From contig CANRJC010000013.1 of assembly GCA_947630795.1 (NCBI GenBank), forward strand, positions 1 to 53,557: 53,557 bases of DNA, written 5' to 3'. The DNA comes from an uncultured Phascolarctobacterium sp. GTDB lineage: Bacteria; Bacillota; Negativicutes; Acidaminococcales; Acidaminococcaceae. Both the position numbers and the translations under genes were made by a program. Below the pieces are notes generated by a model. That model ran no database searches and was not told where the DNA came from. It worked only from the letters and a program-made list of their open reading frames with translations. Positions 37,972 through 53,108 of the stretch are shown piece by piece. How positions within the stretch are numbered: position 1 is the stretch's first letter; each line of letters begins with the position of its first letter.

Positions 37972-38547
37972 ATGGGGAAATTGATCTTGGTGAGCGGAGG
38001 AGTTCGCAGCGGCAAGAGCGCTTTTGCCGAAAAATATTGTTTGAACGCCGCTAAAAACTGCGCCTACATCGCCACGGCCGAGATAACCGACGAAGAGATG
38101 GCAGAAAGGGTGCGGCTGCATAGAGCACGGCGGCGGAACGGTCGCTGGTCGAATTTTGAGGCTCCTTATGAAGCGGAAAAAATTTTTCAAGAGCTGCCGC
38201 ATGAGGTGGGGGCAGTGCTCTTTGACTGCATCACCGTCTATCTGGCTAATGCCATGTACGGGCGTACGACTAAAGAAGATACCATAACCAGAGGCTTGGC
38301 GGCCGTCAAAAAATTGGCTGCCGCAGCTCTTGAGTGGGACGGCCTCACCGTGTTCGTCAGCGATGAAGTGGGCTGCGGCGTGGTGCCTCCCACGCCTGTA
38401 GGGAGAGAATATCGAGATGCTTCCGGCTGGGCCAATCAGCATTTGGCGGCGTTGGCCGCAGAAGTTTATTATTGCACGGCGGGCCTGGCCGTAGAGATAA
38501 AAGGAGGAGCTCATCCCCTCAGTCCCGCAAAAACCGTCAAGGAGTAA
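37972..38547 (+). CDS. cobU: Adenosylcobinamide kinase/guanylyltransferase
   Basis: CobU phosphorylates adenosylcobinamide and transfers GMP to give adenosylcobinamide-GDP, the upper half of cobamide assembly. The 191-residue protein has the P-loop GGVRSGKS, the segment with the guanylylated His (RVRLHRARR) and the SDEVGCGVVPPTPVGREYRD signature. It is the first of five cob genes in a row, 3 nt before cobT. No cobalamin riboswitch fold is apparent in the 60 nt after the tsf terminator. Confidence 0.94.
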   Translation: MGKLILVSGGVRSGKSAFAEKYCLNAAKNCAYIATAEITDEEMAERVRLHRARRRNGRWSNFEAPYEAEKIFQELPHEVGAVLFDCITVYLANAMYGRTTKEDTITRGLAAVKKLAAAALEWDGLTVFVSDEVGCGVVPPTPVGREYRDASGWANQHLAALAAEVYYCTAGLAVEIKGGAHPLSPAKTVKE

Positions 38548-38550
38548 AGG

Positions 38551-39603
38551 ATGCAAGCTATCACGATACCGCCTCTTGATCTGGAGGCAGGGAAAAAAGC
38601 GGCCCGCAGTTTGGGCGCTTTGGAAGAATTTACCGGAGAACTGGGCCTCTTGCCGGTGCTGGCCGGCCAATATGCCGCCATGCGGGGCATCGATCCCTCA
38701 GCTTTGCAAAAAGCTGACGAAACATGGAGCAAATTGCGCCCGGCTTTGATCTTGATGTGCGGCGACCACGGCATCACTAAGTATGGAGTAAGCGCCTTCC
38801 CGCAAGAAGTCACATTGCAGATGATCAACGGTTATATGCGGCAAACAGCGGGGGCCAGCGTGCTGGCCCGCCACGCCGGGGCTGATGTTTACGTATGCGA
38901 CGTAGGCACTGCCTTCGATCTGTCGGAGCAAAAAGGCGTTTATCACAGAAAGGTGGCCTGGGGCACGGAAGACTTCACTTCGGGCCCGGCCATGAGCAAA
39001 GAACAGGCAGAGGCTGCTTTGCAGGCGGGCATGGAAATGGCCGACATCGCCATAGAGGCCGGACATAATTTGCTTTACACAGGCGAGATGGGCATAGGCA
39101 ACACCACTTCCACCGCCGCCATCGCCGCCGCTTATCTGGGGCTGGACCCGGTGCTCACCGTAGGACGGGGCAGCGGCATCAACGATGCCCGTCTCAAAGT
39201 GAAGCGGCAAGTGGTGGCCAAGGGACTGGCAGTGAATAAGCCCAAAGTTCGCGATGCCATGGATGTGCTGTGCAAGGTGGGCGGCTACGATCACGCCGGC
39301 TTGGCCGGCGCCATCATCGGCGGGGCCCGCCGCCGCATCCCCACGGTGGTGGACGGCTGCAACGCCACCGCCGCCGCTCTCATCGCGGTGGGGCTCTATC
39401 CCGGCTGTCGAAATTATCTTTTCTGCAGCCACAAGAGCAGCGATCTCTCTCAAAATAAAATGTTGGAAGAATTGCAACTGCAGCCCATCGTAGATGCGGG
39501 CCTGCGGCTGGGAGAGGGAACGGGCGCTTCTTTGGCCATCCCAGTGCTGCAGGCGGCGCTGGATCTTTACACCGAAGCAGGCAGGTGCGCCGATGCTGAA
39601 TGA
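38551..39603 (+). CDS. cobT: Nicotinate-nucleotide:base phosphoribosyltransferase CobT (catalytic copy)
   Basis: CobT moves the phosphoribosyl group from nicotinate mononucleotide to the lower-ligand base of cobamides (classically dimethylbenzimidazole). The 350-residue protein has MCGDHGITKYGVSAFPQEVT, GEMGIGNTTSTAAI, and the catalytic Glu322 in RLGEGTGASLA. Its N-terminus is slightly unusual in lacking the LTKPPGSLG element that many CobTs have. AAGGAG precedes the ATG. A second, shortened CobT homologue sits two genes later, so the two may form one enzyme. Confidence 0.93.
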   Translation: MQAITIPPLDLEAGKKAARSLGALEEFTGELGLLPVLAGQYAAMRGIDPSALQKADETWSKLRPALILMCGDHGITKYGVSAFPQEVTLQMINGYMRQTAGASVLARHAGADVYVCDVGTAFDLSEQKGVYHRKVAWGTEDFTSGPAMSKEQAEAALQAGMEMADIAIEAGHNLLYTGEMGIGNTTSTAAIAAAYLGLDPVLTVGRGSGINDARLKVKRQVVAKGLAVNKPKVRDAMDVLCKVGGYDHAGLAGAIIGGARRRIPTVVDGCNATAAALIAVGLYPGCRNYLFCSHKSSDLSQNKMLEELQLQPIVDAGLRLGEGTGASLAIPVLQAALDLYTEAGRCADAE

Positions 39604-40351
39604 TCTTCTTACCTGCATAGAATTTTTGACCAGATGGAAGCCGGCGGCTAGGCAGTCTTGGCGGGACGACGCCTTTGCCCGCAGCGTGCCTTGGTTCCCC
39701 GCAGTAGGCCTTTTGATGGGCTTGGCCATGGGGGCCGGCGCTTATCTTTTGTTTTGGCTCAACGTGCCCTATCTGCTGCGGGCCGCTTTGTTGATCTTGT
39801 GGGAGCTGCTTTTGATAGGCTCGCTGATGTATGACGGCTTCATGGACAGCTGCGACGGTCTGTTCAGCGCCCGCGACAGAGAGCGGATGCTGGAGATCAT
39901 GAAGGACAGCCACGTGGGGGCCAATGCGGTCATCGGGCTCTGCTCCCTCGTGTTGGTGAAATTTTCCGCTTTGGCAAGTTTGCGGCCCGATGTGCTGCCC
40001 CTTGCTCTGATAGTGCTTTATGTGGCAAGATGCACCCACATGGTCCTCTACATCGTAAAATTTCCCTGTGCCCGGCCCGACGGCATCGCTCGGCTCTTCG
40101 CCAACGGCGCCAAGTCATCCTACGTTACGGCAGCTCTGCTCTTTTATGCTGCGGTGTTGTTGGTAAGCTTCGGTGTGAACCCCGCCTATGCCCTGGCGGC
40201 ACTTACGAGCTTTGTCTGCAGTTTGCTCGCGGCCTGCTATGTGAAGCGACAACTGGGGGGCCTCACCGGCGACACCTACGGCTTTTTGACAGAGGTGGGC
40301 ACGGCGGTCTATTTGCTAGCTTTGCTGATCTTGGGAAGAATGTTGTTTTAA
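39593..40351 (+). CDS. cobS: Adenosylcobinamide-GDP ribazoletransferase CobS
   Basis: CobS is a membrane enzyme that joins adenosylcobinamide-GDP to the alpha-ribazole (phosphate) to complete the cobamide. The 252-residue protein has several membrane helices and the metal/substrate motif DGFMDSCDGLFSARDRERML followed by KDSHVGANAV, the CobS signature. ATG 39593 overlaps the end of cobT by 11 nt. The longer frame upstream lies inside cobT and is not used. Confidence 0.94.
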   Translation: MLNDLLTCIEFLTRWKPAARQSWRDDAFARSVPWFPAVGLLMGLAMGAGAYLLFWLNVPYLLRAALLILWELLLIGSLMYDGFMDSCDGLFSARDRERMLEIMKDSHVGANAVIGLCSLVLVKFSALASLRPDVLPLALIVLYVARCTHMVLYIVKFPCARPDGIARLFANGAKSSYVTAALLFYAAVLLVSFGVNPAYALAALTSFVCSLLAACYVKRQLGGLTGDTYGFLTEVGTAVYLLALLILGRMLF

Positions 40352-40360
40352 GGAGCCCAC

Positions 40361-41161
40361 ATGCATATAGAAGAAATAATCCAAAGTATCGTCCCTCCCT
40401 CGGCCGAATGCCGCAGGCTGGCGCAAAAACGTTTCGACGAATTGATCAAACCGGTAGGTTCGCTGGCTCTTTTGGAAGTGAACACCAGCCGCTATTGCGG
40501 CATTTTGGGAGAAACTGACAAAAATAAATTGGACTATCCTCGGGCCGCTCTTTTCGTTTTCGCCGATGCCGGCCACATGAAAAGAACAGAGCGCTTGCTC
40601 ACCGGCCGCGATCCCCTCAACGTGCTGGCCAAAACGGTGGGGCTCCAGGTGCAGCCACTGCTGGTGACCTGCACCGCTGCGGCCGATGCTTTGAACGAAG
40701 GAGTGGCTCTGGTGCAGGAAGTGGCGGCTGAGGAAGGGCTGGGCCTTTTGGCCTTTGGTTGTTTGGCTCCGCCTTCAAATGAAGCGGTCCACAGCGCCAT
40801 GGTAGGGGCAGTATTGGCGGCGGCCAGCCGCAAATTGCCGGTCATTTTGGACGGCGTGGCTGCTCTTGAGGCAGCTCGACAAGCGGCGGCGCTGGCGCCG
40901 GCGGCCTTGGACTATTGTTTTGCCGCCCAAGTGAGCGGCGAAGAAGGCTGCGAAGAACTTTTGCAAAAATTGGGGCTCGTTCCCCCTTTGAGGCTGGGGA
41001 TCAGCGGGGGCACGGGCTGCGGCGCGGCCTTGGCCGTCACCGTCTTCAACGCCGGCATCAAAGTTTATAAAGAAATGGAAACTTTCGAAGAGGCCGGGGT
41101 GCACACAGAAGTGAAAGAATATTCTCACGCAGAGCAACAAAAACGCCGGCGGGGAGTTTAG
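40361..41161 (+). CDS. Short CobT paralogue lacking the catalytic glutamate
   Basis: A 266-residue protein clearly in the CobT fold family: RFDELIKPVGSLALLE (~25-40) matches the KPxGSLGxLE element, and CFAAQVSGEEGCEELL plus ALAVTVFNAGIKVYKEM (with TFEEAGV) match the C-terminal part. Against ordinary CobT it is ~85 residues shorter, has FADAGHMKR instead of GDHG(V/I), lacks the GIGNTT loop, and reads RLGISGGTGCGAALA where CobT has RLGEGTGAALA, so the catalytic Glu is replaced by Thr218. It is probably not active alone. Its place between cobS and cobC suggests a partner or specificity subunit of the intact CobT. AAGGAG lies 5 nt before the ATG. Confidence 0.88.
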   Translation: MHIEEIIQSIVPPSAECRRLAQKRFDELIKPVGSLALLEVNTSRYCGILGETDKNKLDYPRAALFVFADAGHMKRTERLLTGRDPLNVLAKTVGLQVQPLLVTCTAAADALNEGVALVQEVAAEEGLGLLAFGCLAPPSNEAVHSAMVGAVLAAASRKLPVILDGVAALEAARQAAALAPAALDYCFAAQVSGEEGCEELLQKLGLVPPLRLGISGGTGCGAALAVTVFNAGIKVYKEMETFEEAGVHTEVKEYSHAEQQKRRRGV

Positions 41162-41170
41162 GAGGAGAAG

Positions 41171-41881
41171 ATGGGAAAGCTTTATCTTATCCGTCACGGC
41201 CAGACCGATTCCAACAGCGGCAAGCAGCTGCAGGGGCGTATCGACTATCCTCTCAATGCCGAAGGCTTGCGGCAGGCTAGGGCCATGACCGCTTATATGG
41301 ACTCGGTGAAGTTGGATGCCATCTATTCGAGCAGCATGCTGCGGGCCAGGATGACGGCGGCGCCTTTGGCTCTGGCCCATAATTTGCCTTATAGATGCAC
41401 CGAACTGCTGCAGGAGATGAGCTTCGGTGAGTGGGAGGGCCTGCCTTTGGATGAGATAGGCCGGCGCTGGCCCCGCGAGATGGAACTTTTTCTCACCAAA
41501 CCGGGCGAATGGCAGCCGCCGGGAGGGGAAACTTTCGCCGAGGCCGTAGAGCGGAGCAAAAAAGCGCTGGCCTATATCTTTTCTCAAGAAGGCCACGATA
41601 AAGATATCGCCGTAGTCAGCCACGGCGGGCTCATAAGATGTTTGCTCTGCGTTTTTTTGGGCCTGCCGTTGAATAATTTTTGGAAGTTGTGCGTCCACAA
41701 CGTCAGTGTCAGCGTCATCCGGGAATGGGACGGCAACTTCATGGCGGAGAACATCAACGTCCGCAATTTTTTGAGCGAAGACAAAGCTCTTGCAGGCGGC
41801 TCTCCTTTTAAAACTCCTGCGGCCGCCGGACCGTCTTTCGGCAGAGACGAAGCTGCCGAAGGAGGGGCCGGGATACTGTGA
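41171..41881 (+). CDS. cobC: Alpha-ribazole phosphatase-like histidine phosphatase (CobC)
   Basis: A 236-residue histidine phosphatase; CobC-type enzymes dephosphorylate alpha-ribazole-5-phosphate or cobamide-5-phosphate. The phosphohistidine motif LIRHGQTDSN is at the N-terminus, Arg/Glu residues follow (SSMLRARMTAAPL, EEMSF-type EMSFGEWEG) and the second His is in VVSHGGLIRC. The last ~35 residues are an Ala/Gly/Pro-rich tail beyond the usual domain. AGGAGG precedes the ATG. Its role is inferred from the operon; broad-specificity phosphatases look alike. Confidence 0.85.
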   Translation: MGKLYLIRHGQTDSNSGKQLQGRIDYPLNAEGLRQARAMTAYMDSVKLDAIYSSSMLRARMTAAPLALAHNLPYRCTELLQEMSFGEWEGLPLDEIGRRWPREMELFLTKPGEWQPPGGETFAEAVERSKKALAYIFSQEGHDKDIAVVSHGGLIRCLLCVFLGLPLNNFWKLCVHNVSVSVIREWDGNFMAENINVRNFLSEDKALAGGSPFKTPAAAGPSFGRDEAAEGGAGIL

Positions 41882-50459: not shown

Positions 50460-51058
50460 TGTTTTACGATCTGTTAAAAAAAATTCTTTATGTCGTTTTC
50501 AAAGTGCTGCTGCGATTGGAGATTAAAGGGGAAGAGAACATCCCCTTAGAGGGAGCTCTGGTGATCGCCAGCAATCACATCAGCCTGTTGGACCCTCCCG
50601 TTTTGGGAGTGGCGGCCACCCGTAAGGTCCACTTCATGGCCAAAAAGGAACTCTTCGTGCCTGTCTTGGGCACTTTATACCGCTACTTGGGTGCCTTCCC
50701 CGTGCAAAGAGGGGGAGCGGACAGAGCGGCCATCAAGCAAGGCCTCGATATATTGCGCAACGGCCACACCTTGGCCATTTTCCCCGAAGGGACCCGCAGC
50801 AAGACCGGCCTTTTGGGAAAGGCAGAGCCCGGCGCATTGATGATGGCGGGAAAGACCGATGCCTGTATCGTGCCTGCCTGTGTGGCGGGAACCGATCTTC
50901 TTCGCAGCGGCAGGCTGTGGCCCAAGGTGAAGGTGCGTTTCGGCGCTCCCCTTTATTTTCCCGAGGGGAAGCTGACCAAGGAGATCTTGCGGGAACACAC
51001 CGACACATTGATGGAGAGGATAGCCGCTTTGCAAAAGGAGCTCAAAGATGAAGGTTAA
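50459..51058 (+). CDS. plsC: 1-acyl-sn-glycerol-3-phosphate acyltransferase
   Basis: PlsC acylates lysophosphatidate to phosphatidate at the membrane. The 199-residue protein has the NHISLLD (Hx4D) catalytic motif, FPVQR and FPEGTRS acyl-acceptor motifs and an N-terminal hydrophobic segment. ATG 50459 is the second codon of the open frame and overlaps the cmk stop. It overlaps ispH-rpsA by 11 nt. Confidence 0.94.
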   Translation: MFYDLLKKILYVVFKVLLRLEIKGEENIPLEGALVIASNHISLLDPPVLGVAATRKVHFMAKKELFVPVLGTLYRYLGAFPVQRGGADRAAIKQGLDILRNGHTLAIFPEGTRSKTGLLGKAEPGALMMAGKTDACIVPACVAGTDLLRSGRLWPKVKVRFGAPLYFPEGKLTKEILREHTDTLMERIAALQKELKDEG

Positions 51059-53108
51059 AACAGCCGAGACCTTGGGCTTTTGCTACGGGGTGAAGAGGGC
51101 CGTGCAGCTGGCTTTCGCCGCCGCTGCCGCCGGAGAAAAGGGCGCCACTTTGGGGCCCCTCATCCACAATCCTCAACTCATCGCCGAACTGGCGGAGCAA
51201 GGGATAGGCTGCAAAGAAAAAACGGCGGACTTTGAAGCAGGGGAGACCATCATCGTCCGTTCTCACGGCGTGGGCCCGGAAGTTTACAAAGAGATAGAAG
51301 CTCGGGGGCTGAAACTGATCGATGCTACCTGCCCCAGCGTGGCCTTGGCCCAAAAAAAAGCGGCTGCTGCCGTCGCCGAAGGCTATTTTCCCATCATCAT
51401 CGGCGAAAAAAATCATCAGGAAGTAAAAAGTTTATTGAGTCATGCAGGAAATGAAGCTGTCTGCGTAGAAGATAGCAAAGATATTTGTGACATACCGGCT
51501 CGACCTCGCTATGCCGTCGTCATTCAGACCACTTTCGAAGAGGCCAAGTTTCGGCAACTGCTGACGGCCATCAAAGCAGCCAGAGACGGCGAGTATAAAG
51601 TGGAGAGCACCATCTGTCCCGCCACCGCTCAGCGGCAGCAAGCAGCGAGAGAATTGGCGGCACAGGTAGACGCCATGGTGGTGATAGGCGGCAGAGACAG
51701 CGCCAACACCCGCCATCTTTATGAGATAGTGGAGCGCATCTGCCCCAAAAGCTATCACATCGAAACGGCGGCGGAACTGCGGCCGGAGTGGTTCATAAAT
51801 TGCGAAACAGTAGGAATTACGGCAGGGGCATCTACCCCGGACCGTTTAATTAAGGAGGCAAAGGCTGTAATGGAAAACGAAGATTTTGGCAAAATGCTGG
51901 AGGAACAAGGAGAAGTGGAGGTGTATCCGGGAAAGATCATCGAGGGCGAAGTCATCCATAAGGATAACGACGGCGTTTATGTAAGCTTCGGCTACAGACA
52001 CGACGGCAAGATCGCCTACTCCGAATGGGCTGTCGGCGTGCCTGCGGATCAAATAAAAGAAAGCATCGAGGTGGGCCAAAAGGTGAAGGCCGTGGTCATC
52101 CCCGGCAAGAACGACGACAACACTGTTCGTCTCTCCAAGATCAGAGCCGACAAAGAGGCTGCTTGGGAGCAGATCGAGCCTTTGGCAGAAGGAGAGAAAC
52201 GGCCGGCTAAGGTCACCGTGCTCCGCATCGTCAAGAACAAGGCCAAGAACATCGTGGGTCTCGCCGTGAAAGTGGAAGGCGTGGACGGCTTCATGCCCGC
52301 TTCTCACGTAGAGTTGCGCAGGGTGGAGGACTTCACTCCTTACATCGGTCAGGAACTGGATGCGGAGATCATCGAAGTGGATCCCGAGAAGAAAAGGATC
52401 GTGGTATCTCGCCGCAGCCTGTTGAAGGCCGAGCGGGAGGCCAAACATCAGGCCTATTTGAAACAAAAAGAAGAGAACCGCCTGCGCCGTCAGCAAGAGC
52501 GGGAAGAGCGGGAAGAAAGAGCTTACGCTTCCGTGGAAGAGGGACAGGTCCTCACCGGCAAAGTGGTGAAAGTAGCCGAGTTCGGTCTCTTCGTAGAAGT
52601 GGGCGACGGCTTGGTGGGCCTGGTGCACAACACCGAGCTTAGCTGGGACAGAAGCGTCAAAGCAGCTGACGTTGCCGATGTGGGCGCAGAAGTTACGGTC
52701 CAAGTGAAGAAGATCGACAGAGAAGCCAGAAGAGTTGCTCTGTCCATCAAAGCCACTCAGCCCGATCCTTGGGTGGAAGAAGCAGCTCAGCTGCGCATCG
52801 GTCAAGTGCTGGACGTGGAAGTGGTACGCTTCTTGGCTTTCGGCGCCATCGTTCGCATCAGCGAGCGGCTGGAAGGCTTGGTACACATCTCCGAGATCGC
52901 CGAAGAGCGGATCGCCAAACCCGACGACGTGCTGACTTTGGGCCAGAAGGTGAAGGCTACCTTGCTGAAAAAAGATCTGGAGGGCAAGAAGCTGGGCCTC
53001 TCCATCGTGCGGGCCAAGAGAGATCAGGAGAAGGCGGAGTATCGTTCTTACCTGAACAACAACAAAGGTTTGACCGTAGATCTTTCCGAACAGTTCAAGC
53101 ACGACTGA
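51048..53108 (+). CDS. ispH-rpsA: Fusion of IspH (LytB) reductase with ribosomal protein S1
   Basis: A 686-residue fusion. Residues ~1-280 are 4-hydroxy-3-methylbut-2-enyl diphosphate reductase, the last step of the MEP isoprenoid path: the three [4Fe-4S] Cys are C12, C95 and C190, with LIHN, RSHG and EKNHQE motifs. After a linker (~281-303) come four S1 RNA-binding domains (~304-380, ~390-465, ~505-580, ~590-665) that make up a bS1 protein. Such fusions are established in Clostridia and Negativicutes. AAGGAG lies before ATG 51048. A charged, Glu/Arg-rich coiled stretch (~475-500) separates S1 domains 2 and 3. Confidence 0.96.
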   Translation: MKVKTAETLGFCYGVKRAVQLAFAAAAAGEKGATLGPLIHNPQLIAELAEQGIGCKEKTADFEAGETIIVRSHGVGPEVYKEIEARGLKLIDATCPSVALAQKKAAAAVAEGYFPIIIGEKNHQEVKSLLSHAGNEAVCVEDSKDICDIPARPRYAVVIQTTFEEAKFRQLLTAIKAARDGEYKVESTICPATAQRQQAARELAAQVDAMVVIGGRDSANTRHLYEIVERICPKSYHIETAAELRPEWFINCETVGITAGASTPDRLIKEAKAVMENEDFGKMLEEQGEVEVYPGKIIEGEVIHKDNDGVYVSFGYRHDGKIAYSEWAVGVPADQIKESIEVGQKVKAVVIPGKNDDNTVRLSKIRADKEAAWEQIEPLAEGEKRPAKVTVLRIVKNKAKNIVGLAVKVEGVDGFMPASHVELRRVEDFTPYIGQELDAEIIEVDPEKKRIVVSRRSLLKAEREAKHQAYLKQKEENRLRRQQEREEREERAYASVEEGQVLTGKVVKVAEFGLFVEVGDGLVGLVHNTELSWDRSVKAADVADVGAEVTVQVKKIDREARRVALSIKATQPDPWVEEAAQLRIGQVLDVEVVRFLAFGAIVRISERLEGLVHISEIAEERIAKPDDVLTLGQKVKATLLKKDLEGKKLGLSIVRAKRDQEKAEYRSYLNNNKGLTVDLSEQFKHD

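Follow-up and report, generated by a model that had tools for sequence, protein, structure and literature searches.

Computational analysis of the window, the whole 53,557-nucleotide stretch of DNA from an uncultured Phascolarctobacterium sp., revealed a cobamide gene cluster with two CobT homologues, designated here A and B. The order cobU-cobT-cobS-cobT-like-cobC that had been read from the bare sequence was borne out together with its coordinates, and all five genes lie on the + strand. The genes and the motifs within A and B are as follows.

37972..38547, + strand: cobU, adenosylcobinamide kinase/guanylyltransferase (PF02283, 173.5 bits; NCBIfam NF004469 over cut-off)
38551..39603, + strand: A subunit, cobT (350 aa), full-length CobT with intact catalytic core (PF02277, 356 bits)
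38626..38643, + strand: A residues 26-31 (EFTGEL), the place of KPxxSL, which is lost in A (alignment columns 25-38, S. enterica numbering)
39082..39108, + strand: A residues 178-186, nucleotide-binding loop GEMGIGNTT, kept (alignment)
39514..39516, + strand: A Glu322, equivalent to catalytic Glu317 of S. enterica CobT (alignment; role of E317 from PMC9561151)
39587..40351, + strand: cobS, cobalamin-5-phosphate synthase, between A and B (PF02654, 158 bits; TIGR00317 over cut-off)
40361..41161, + strand: B subunit, short cobT-like gene (266 aa), shortened and putatively non-catalytic CobT homologue (PF02277, 122.9 bits)
40448..40465, + strand: B residues 30-35, KPVGSL, kept; K30, P31, and L35 are invariant in 46 aligned relatives
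41012..41014, + strand: B Thr218 at the place of catalytic Glu317 (alignment)
41075..41095, + strand: B residues 239-245 (METFEEA), C-terminal small-domain tail, kept; F242 is invariant and M239, T241, and A245 are nearly so
41171..41881, + strand: cobC, alpha-ribazole phosphatase-like histidine phosphatase (PF00300)

Neighboring genes from cobU to cobC overlap or are separated by at most 17 bases, so a single cobU-cobT-cobS-B-cobC transcript is likely. The cobC product had its best NCBIfam match in TIGR03162 (ribazole_cobC) with 155.8 bits, under the cut-off of 162.9. No cobalamin riboswitch was found in the window at the Rfam gathering threshold. The 1.91-Mb genome, which is of the Acidaminococcaceae type and has a stated completeness of 100%, holds no PF02277 gene besides A and B; the A/B pair provides its only CobT. 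Among named relatives, the short B protein is encoded in Phascolarctobacterium metagenome genomes. At another position (51048-53108), the window encodes a 686-aa fusion of IspH with ribosomal protein S1 domains, and the product matched a known bifunctional family.

The A protein scored over the cut-off of the TIGR03160 CobT equivalog (345 versus 319.3 bits). As the sequence-only reading had claimed, the first homologue keeps the catalytic Glu, and in S. enterica numbering A retains DHG, GEMGIGNTT, Lys213, and Glu317. A converse loss that this reading did not contain was also detected: A lacks KPxGSL (EF replaces KP) and the C-terminal tail. Its dN/dS against the nearest relative was 0.05.

The second homologue, described earlier as about 85 residues shorter, is 84 residues shorter (266 versus 350 aa). 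Alignment likewise supported the remainder of that description, with Thr at the place of Glu317, the GIGNTT loop gone, and KPVGSL and a METFEEAG tail present. Like the GEMGIGNTT loop, the DHG loop is missing from B. The match of B to PF02277 was split into an N-terminal and a C-terminal piece and exceeded the cut-off of 22.6 bits by a wide margin, which confirmed by profile comparison a homology to CobT far beyond chance. B passed the cut-off of this broad Pfam family alone and remained under that of the TIGR03160 equivalog (108.5 versus 319.3 bits). Because the alignment is uncertain in the shortened middle of B, the argument uses only the flanking motifs. The predicted structure of B (pLDDT, 93.1; pTM, 0.88) had ArsB as the nearest solved fold (Z 30.4, 245 residues), followed by CobT (Z about 28). 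As modelled, B retains the entire CobT fold in slimmed form and is more than a detached small domain. The gene was found in most genera of family f1, mostly with 44 to 57% identity to the window protein. Its dN/dS against the nearest relative was 0.16 (cobS, 0.20), a value that indicates purifying constraint on B.

To place these losses in a wider context, representatives of all 30 Negativicutes families in the search, mostly draft genomes, were analyzed and their CobT-like units were extracted. This revealed 67 A/B pairs from 28 of the 30 families sampled, with 13 of the 67 fused in one ORF. Conservation was scored on a panel of our own choice, made up of positions that intact CobTs conserve, 15 in the small domain and 77 in the core. 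Mean conservation of small domain and core was 0.48 and 0.76 in A and 0.91 and 0.42 in B; intact CobTs mostly reached more than 0.9 for both. KPxxSL is kept in all 67 B units, and KP is lost in 48 of the 67 A units. Conversely, Glu317 and the NTT loop are kept in every A unit, and Glu317 is kept in 23 of the 67 B units. All but one of the 48 A units without KP are paired with a B that is catalytically dead as judged from its residues (Glu317 or NTT missing). Loss of KP from A is not obligatory, because KP persists in 13 A units whose partner B lacks Glu317 or NTT. Parsimony on the A tree required at least 12 changes of KP, and no loss occurred in B. The rank correlation was 0.68 across all 67 pairs, which share kinship, so that it is not an independent test; a phylogenetically independent comparison of KP loss with dead B gave the same direction and was underpowered, with two to three informative pairs.

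Loss of Glu was considered as a mark of the helper subunit and rejected, since 23 of the 67 B units keep it, Sporomusa ovata ArsB among them; the commoner mark of B units is loss of the NaMN loops. In the family of the window, 47 of 59 genomes match, and four non-matching genomes that were checked lack any CobT. In genus g15 of this family, the N-terminal segment is present solely in B, because A begins only after the first ~60 residues. The most reduced pairs have A units of 300 to 302 aa and B units of 217 to 221 aa, the B length found in g15 (L060, 4402-5301 and 6192-6842; L059, 2420-3325; L058, 543-1205). Some very short B units could be frameshifts; in L110 (2499-3098), a 200-aa ArsB-like ORF ends within the C-terminal half, through either a frameshift or a real further truncation. 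Seven families (f9, f10, f11, and f15 to f18) contain natural A-B fusions in the form of ArsA-ArsB ORFs of about 600 to 715 aa (L075, L077, L078, L081-L087, L089, L105, and L118). The model of the L089 fusion (668 aa), which comes from another family than the window, had a pTM of 0.90 with a poorly predicted linker between the halves; this value suggests a defined mutual packing of the modelled halves. A third, distant CobT-like clade that keeps FGEMGIGNTT and KP was also observed (L117, L119, and L124; families f28 and f9); in f9 it adjoins cobS and occurs together with an ArsAB fusion.

The symmetric CobT homodimer of Salmonella enterica (PDB entries 1d0s, 1l4b, and 4kqj) has the reaction class, the fold, Glu317, and the two-chain base pocket in common with the proposed pair. 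It is encoded by one gene with both motif sets in each chain, whereas in the window the sets are split over two proteins. In the CobT structure of 1999, the donated part is reportedly the small domain composed of N- and C-terminal segments. In the enterobacterial enzyme, unlike the archaeal one, the two chains of the tight dimer jointly build the base pocket (PMC9561151). Given this shared pocket and the reciprocal losses, we consider it probable that A and B are the obligate partners of an asymmetric CobT heterodimer whose one active site is composed of parts from both chains. In a symmetric dimer, each chain would donate its KPxxSL helix and tail to the pocket of its neighbor. Two unlike chains would yield two sites, one formed by the A core and the B small domain and the other by the B core and the A small domain. 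With the latter site dead, the core loops of B and the KPxxSL of A would be free to decay. A would then provide the NaMN-binding and catalytic core (DHG, GEMGIGNTT, Lys213, and Glu317), and B, presumably no longer catalytic, would serve as a shrunken CobT fold for dimer scaffolding and lend its KPxxSL helix and C-terminal tail to the pocket of A. From the motif pattern we infer that these two elements are the donated parts, that A and B dimerize, and that A depends on B. The alpha-ribotide made by the A-B dimer would subsequently be joined to the corrin by CobS.

Three other explanations of the two proteins were weighed. A might be a self-sufficient CobT homodimer that B merely tunes, for example, in base choice or stability; the equivalog score of A and the KP kept in some family-f1 A subunits would fit this, but window A has neither KPxGSL nor the tail and a homodimer of the g15 A would lack the N-terminal segment altogether, which makes this explanation improbable. 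The lost catalytic loops and reduced length of B could also be those of a decaying remnant without function. Such a remnant is scarcely credible in view of the conservation of B in most genera of the family with K30, P31, and L35 invariant, its dN/dS near that of cobS, and its unchanged place in the operon in all family-f1 loci of sufficient length; a pseudogene was rejected on the basis of conservation and dN/dS. It is very improbable that B catalyzes another reaction as an enzyme in its own right, although its confidently predicted CobT fold would permit one: no new conserved catalytic motif was found, the invariant residues lie mainly in the KPxxSL helix and the tail, and B was found only alongside A in the loci read.

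The asymmetric heterodimer proposed here was compared with ArsAB, the NaMN:phenol/p-cresol phosphoribosyltransferase of S. ovata (PDB entries 4hdk, 4hdm, 4hdn, 4hdr, and 4hds). Like the window pair, ArsAB consists of two CobT homologues from Negativicutes, one with the catalytic core and the other with KPxxSL, the C-terminal tail, and a degraded core. S. ovata ArsA likewise lacks KP (QS instead), and S. ovata ArsB keeps KP and Glu (LGEGTGA) and has lost the NTT loop. ArsA and ArsB are both about 350 aa, adjacent, and located outside the cobU-cobS-cobC operon, whereas window B is shorter and has cobS between it and A. For ArsAB, the use of phenol has been reported. The fused ArsA-ArsB proteins of other Negativicutes families show the same division of motifs as the window and mostly a shortened B half, but they are single polypeptides, belong to the ArsAB clade, and occupy a different locus. 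In a published survey, arsAB was defined as tandem adjacent cobT homologues, both of 300 to 800 aa, and found in 27 species (PMC6461909). In the window and in its family-f1 and f6 relatives, cobS lies between A and B, and window B, at 266 aa, is below this size range; the catalytic asymmetry, with the core kept in A and KPxxSL kept beside a degraded core in B, is present. The principle of an asymmetric CobT heterodimer is thus already known from ArsAB, and the shortened, cobS-interrupted form is a new variation. A search of the open-licence literature for Phascolarctobacterium and cobamide revealed no paper on the CobT of this genus.

Phylogenetic analysis of A placed the window clade (SH-aLRT, 96), which takes in families f2 and f6 and the intact CobT of family f22, as sister to and outside the ArsA clade (99). 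The sequence-only reading had proposed an ArsAB-like heteromeric transferase. Its suggestion held for the way of working, given the reciprocal loss of core and pocket segments, the conserved operon, and the A-B fusions in sister lineages, and had to be given up for ArsAB membership of A, which belongs to the separate sister clade. B fell outside the ArsB clade in two trees, in which the branch order is weakly fixed: uniting B with ArsB as one clade gave a p-AU of 0.377, and uniting it with intact downstream CobTs gave 0.39. Forcing B inside the ArsB clade was 20.8 log-likelihood units worse (p-AU, 0.067). Uniting B with its own A was 22.0 units worse (p-AU, 0.10), and a duplication of A is a less favored, though statistically tolerated, source of B.

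Gene order was compared as well. The order cobU-A-cobS-B-cobC was present in every family-f1 locus with a long enough contig and in f6, and A-cobS-B was found in f2. Family f22 shows the same order with a full-length CobT in the slot of B (G210; L095, 5555-6781), which differs from window B in being intact, with KPxxSL, NTT, and Glu317 kept. Two f11 genomes contain cobS followed by an intact CobT. ArsAB pairs and fusions lie apart from cobU, cobS, and cobC. Genome G042, from the family of the window, carries a canonical ArsAB-type pair, with ArsB shortened to 290 aa, in addition to a window-type pair (L063, 4209-6155; L062, 5071-7772).

These data bear on whether the pair is a true ArsAB orthologue, shortened and with cobS inserted, that makes phenolyl or p-cresolyl cobamides. 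ArsA (4hdk_A) is the best PDB match and closest solved relative of A by sequence, ArsB is the closest solved fold of B, the tree uniting B with ArsB is tolerated, and the Negativicutes also include S. ovata and V. parvula, from which ArsAB is known (PMC8123684); nevertheless, orthology appears unlikely, since A groups with an intact CobT outside the ArsA clade, both kinds of pair occur in G042, the gene order differs with B in the slot of the f22 CobT, and placement of B inside the ArsB clade is costly. On the basis of synteny, we propose with moderate confidence that B would have descended from the CobT downstream of cobS and been reduced in parallel beside ArsAB. Since the slot of B is occupied by an intact, full-length CobT in another family, the pair appears to be an asymmetric CobT dimer that evolved in parallel to ArsAB and has advanced further. 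More tentatively, a CobT heterodimer may possibly have arisen a second time apart from ArsAB when the second, full-length CobT of a cobT-cobS-cobT operon shrank to a pocket-completing subunit, giving gut Acidaminococcaceae their own lower-ligand choice.

Concerning the lower ligand, the base-contact residues of A are F80, M88, and M175 (S. enterica numbering). A lacks the polar S80/Q88 of S. enterica CobT, by which adenine is held in that enzyme (PMC4657239). Prediction of the base from residues 80, 88, and 175 was rejected as non-diagnostic, because Thermus CobT and intact CobTs of Negativicutes share the related set Y80/M88/M175. The sequence thus speaks neither for nor against the altered base choice proposed in the sequence-only reading. 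BluB was not found in the genome, and its only ThiC homologue scores as ThiC, under the BzaB cut-off; synthesis of DMB by the organism was rejected on these grounds. The gene content suggests that the base is probably made otherwise or taken up, and that the organism probably synthesizes the corrin ring de novo, because CbiD is present.

The reciprocal decay of A and B points to the segments of CobT that have to be supplied by the partner chain. Surveys for two adjacent cobT genes of 300 to 800 aa miss shortened, cobS-interrupted, and fused pairs, and producers of unusual lower ligands may therefore be undercounted. Gut samples are rich in phenolyl cobamides, for which very few producers are known (PMC8123684). 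If the pair takes phenols, this gut lineage would be a candidate source of phenolyl cobamides.
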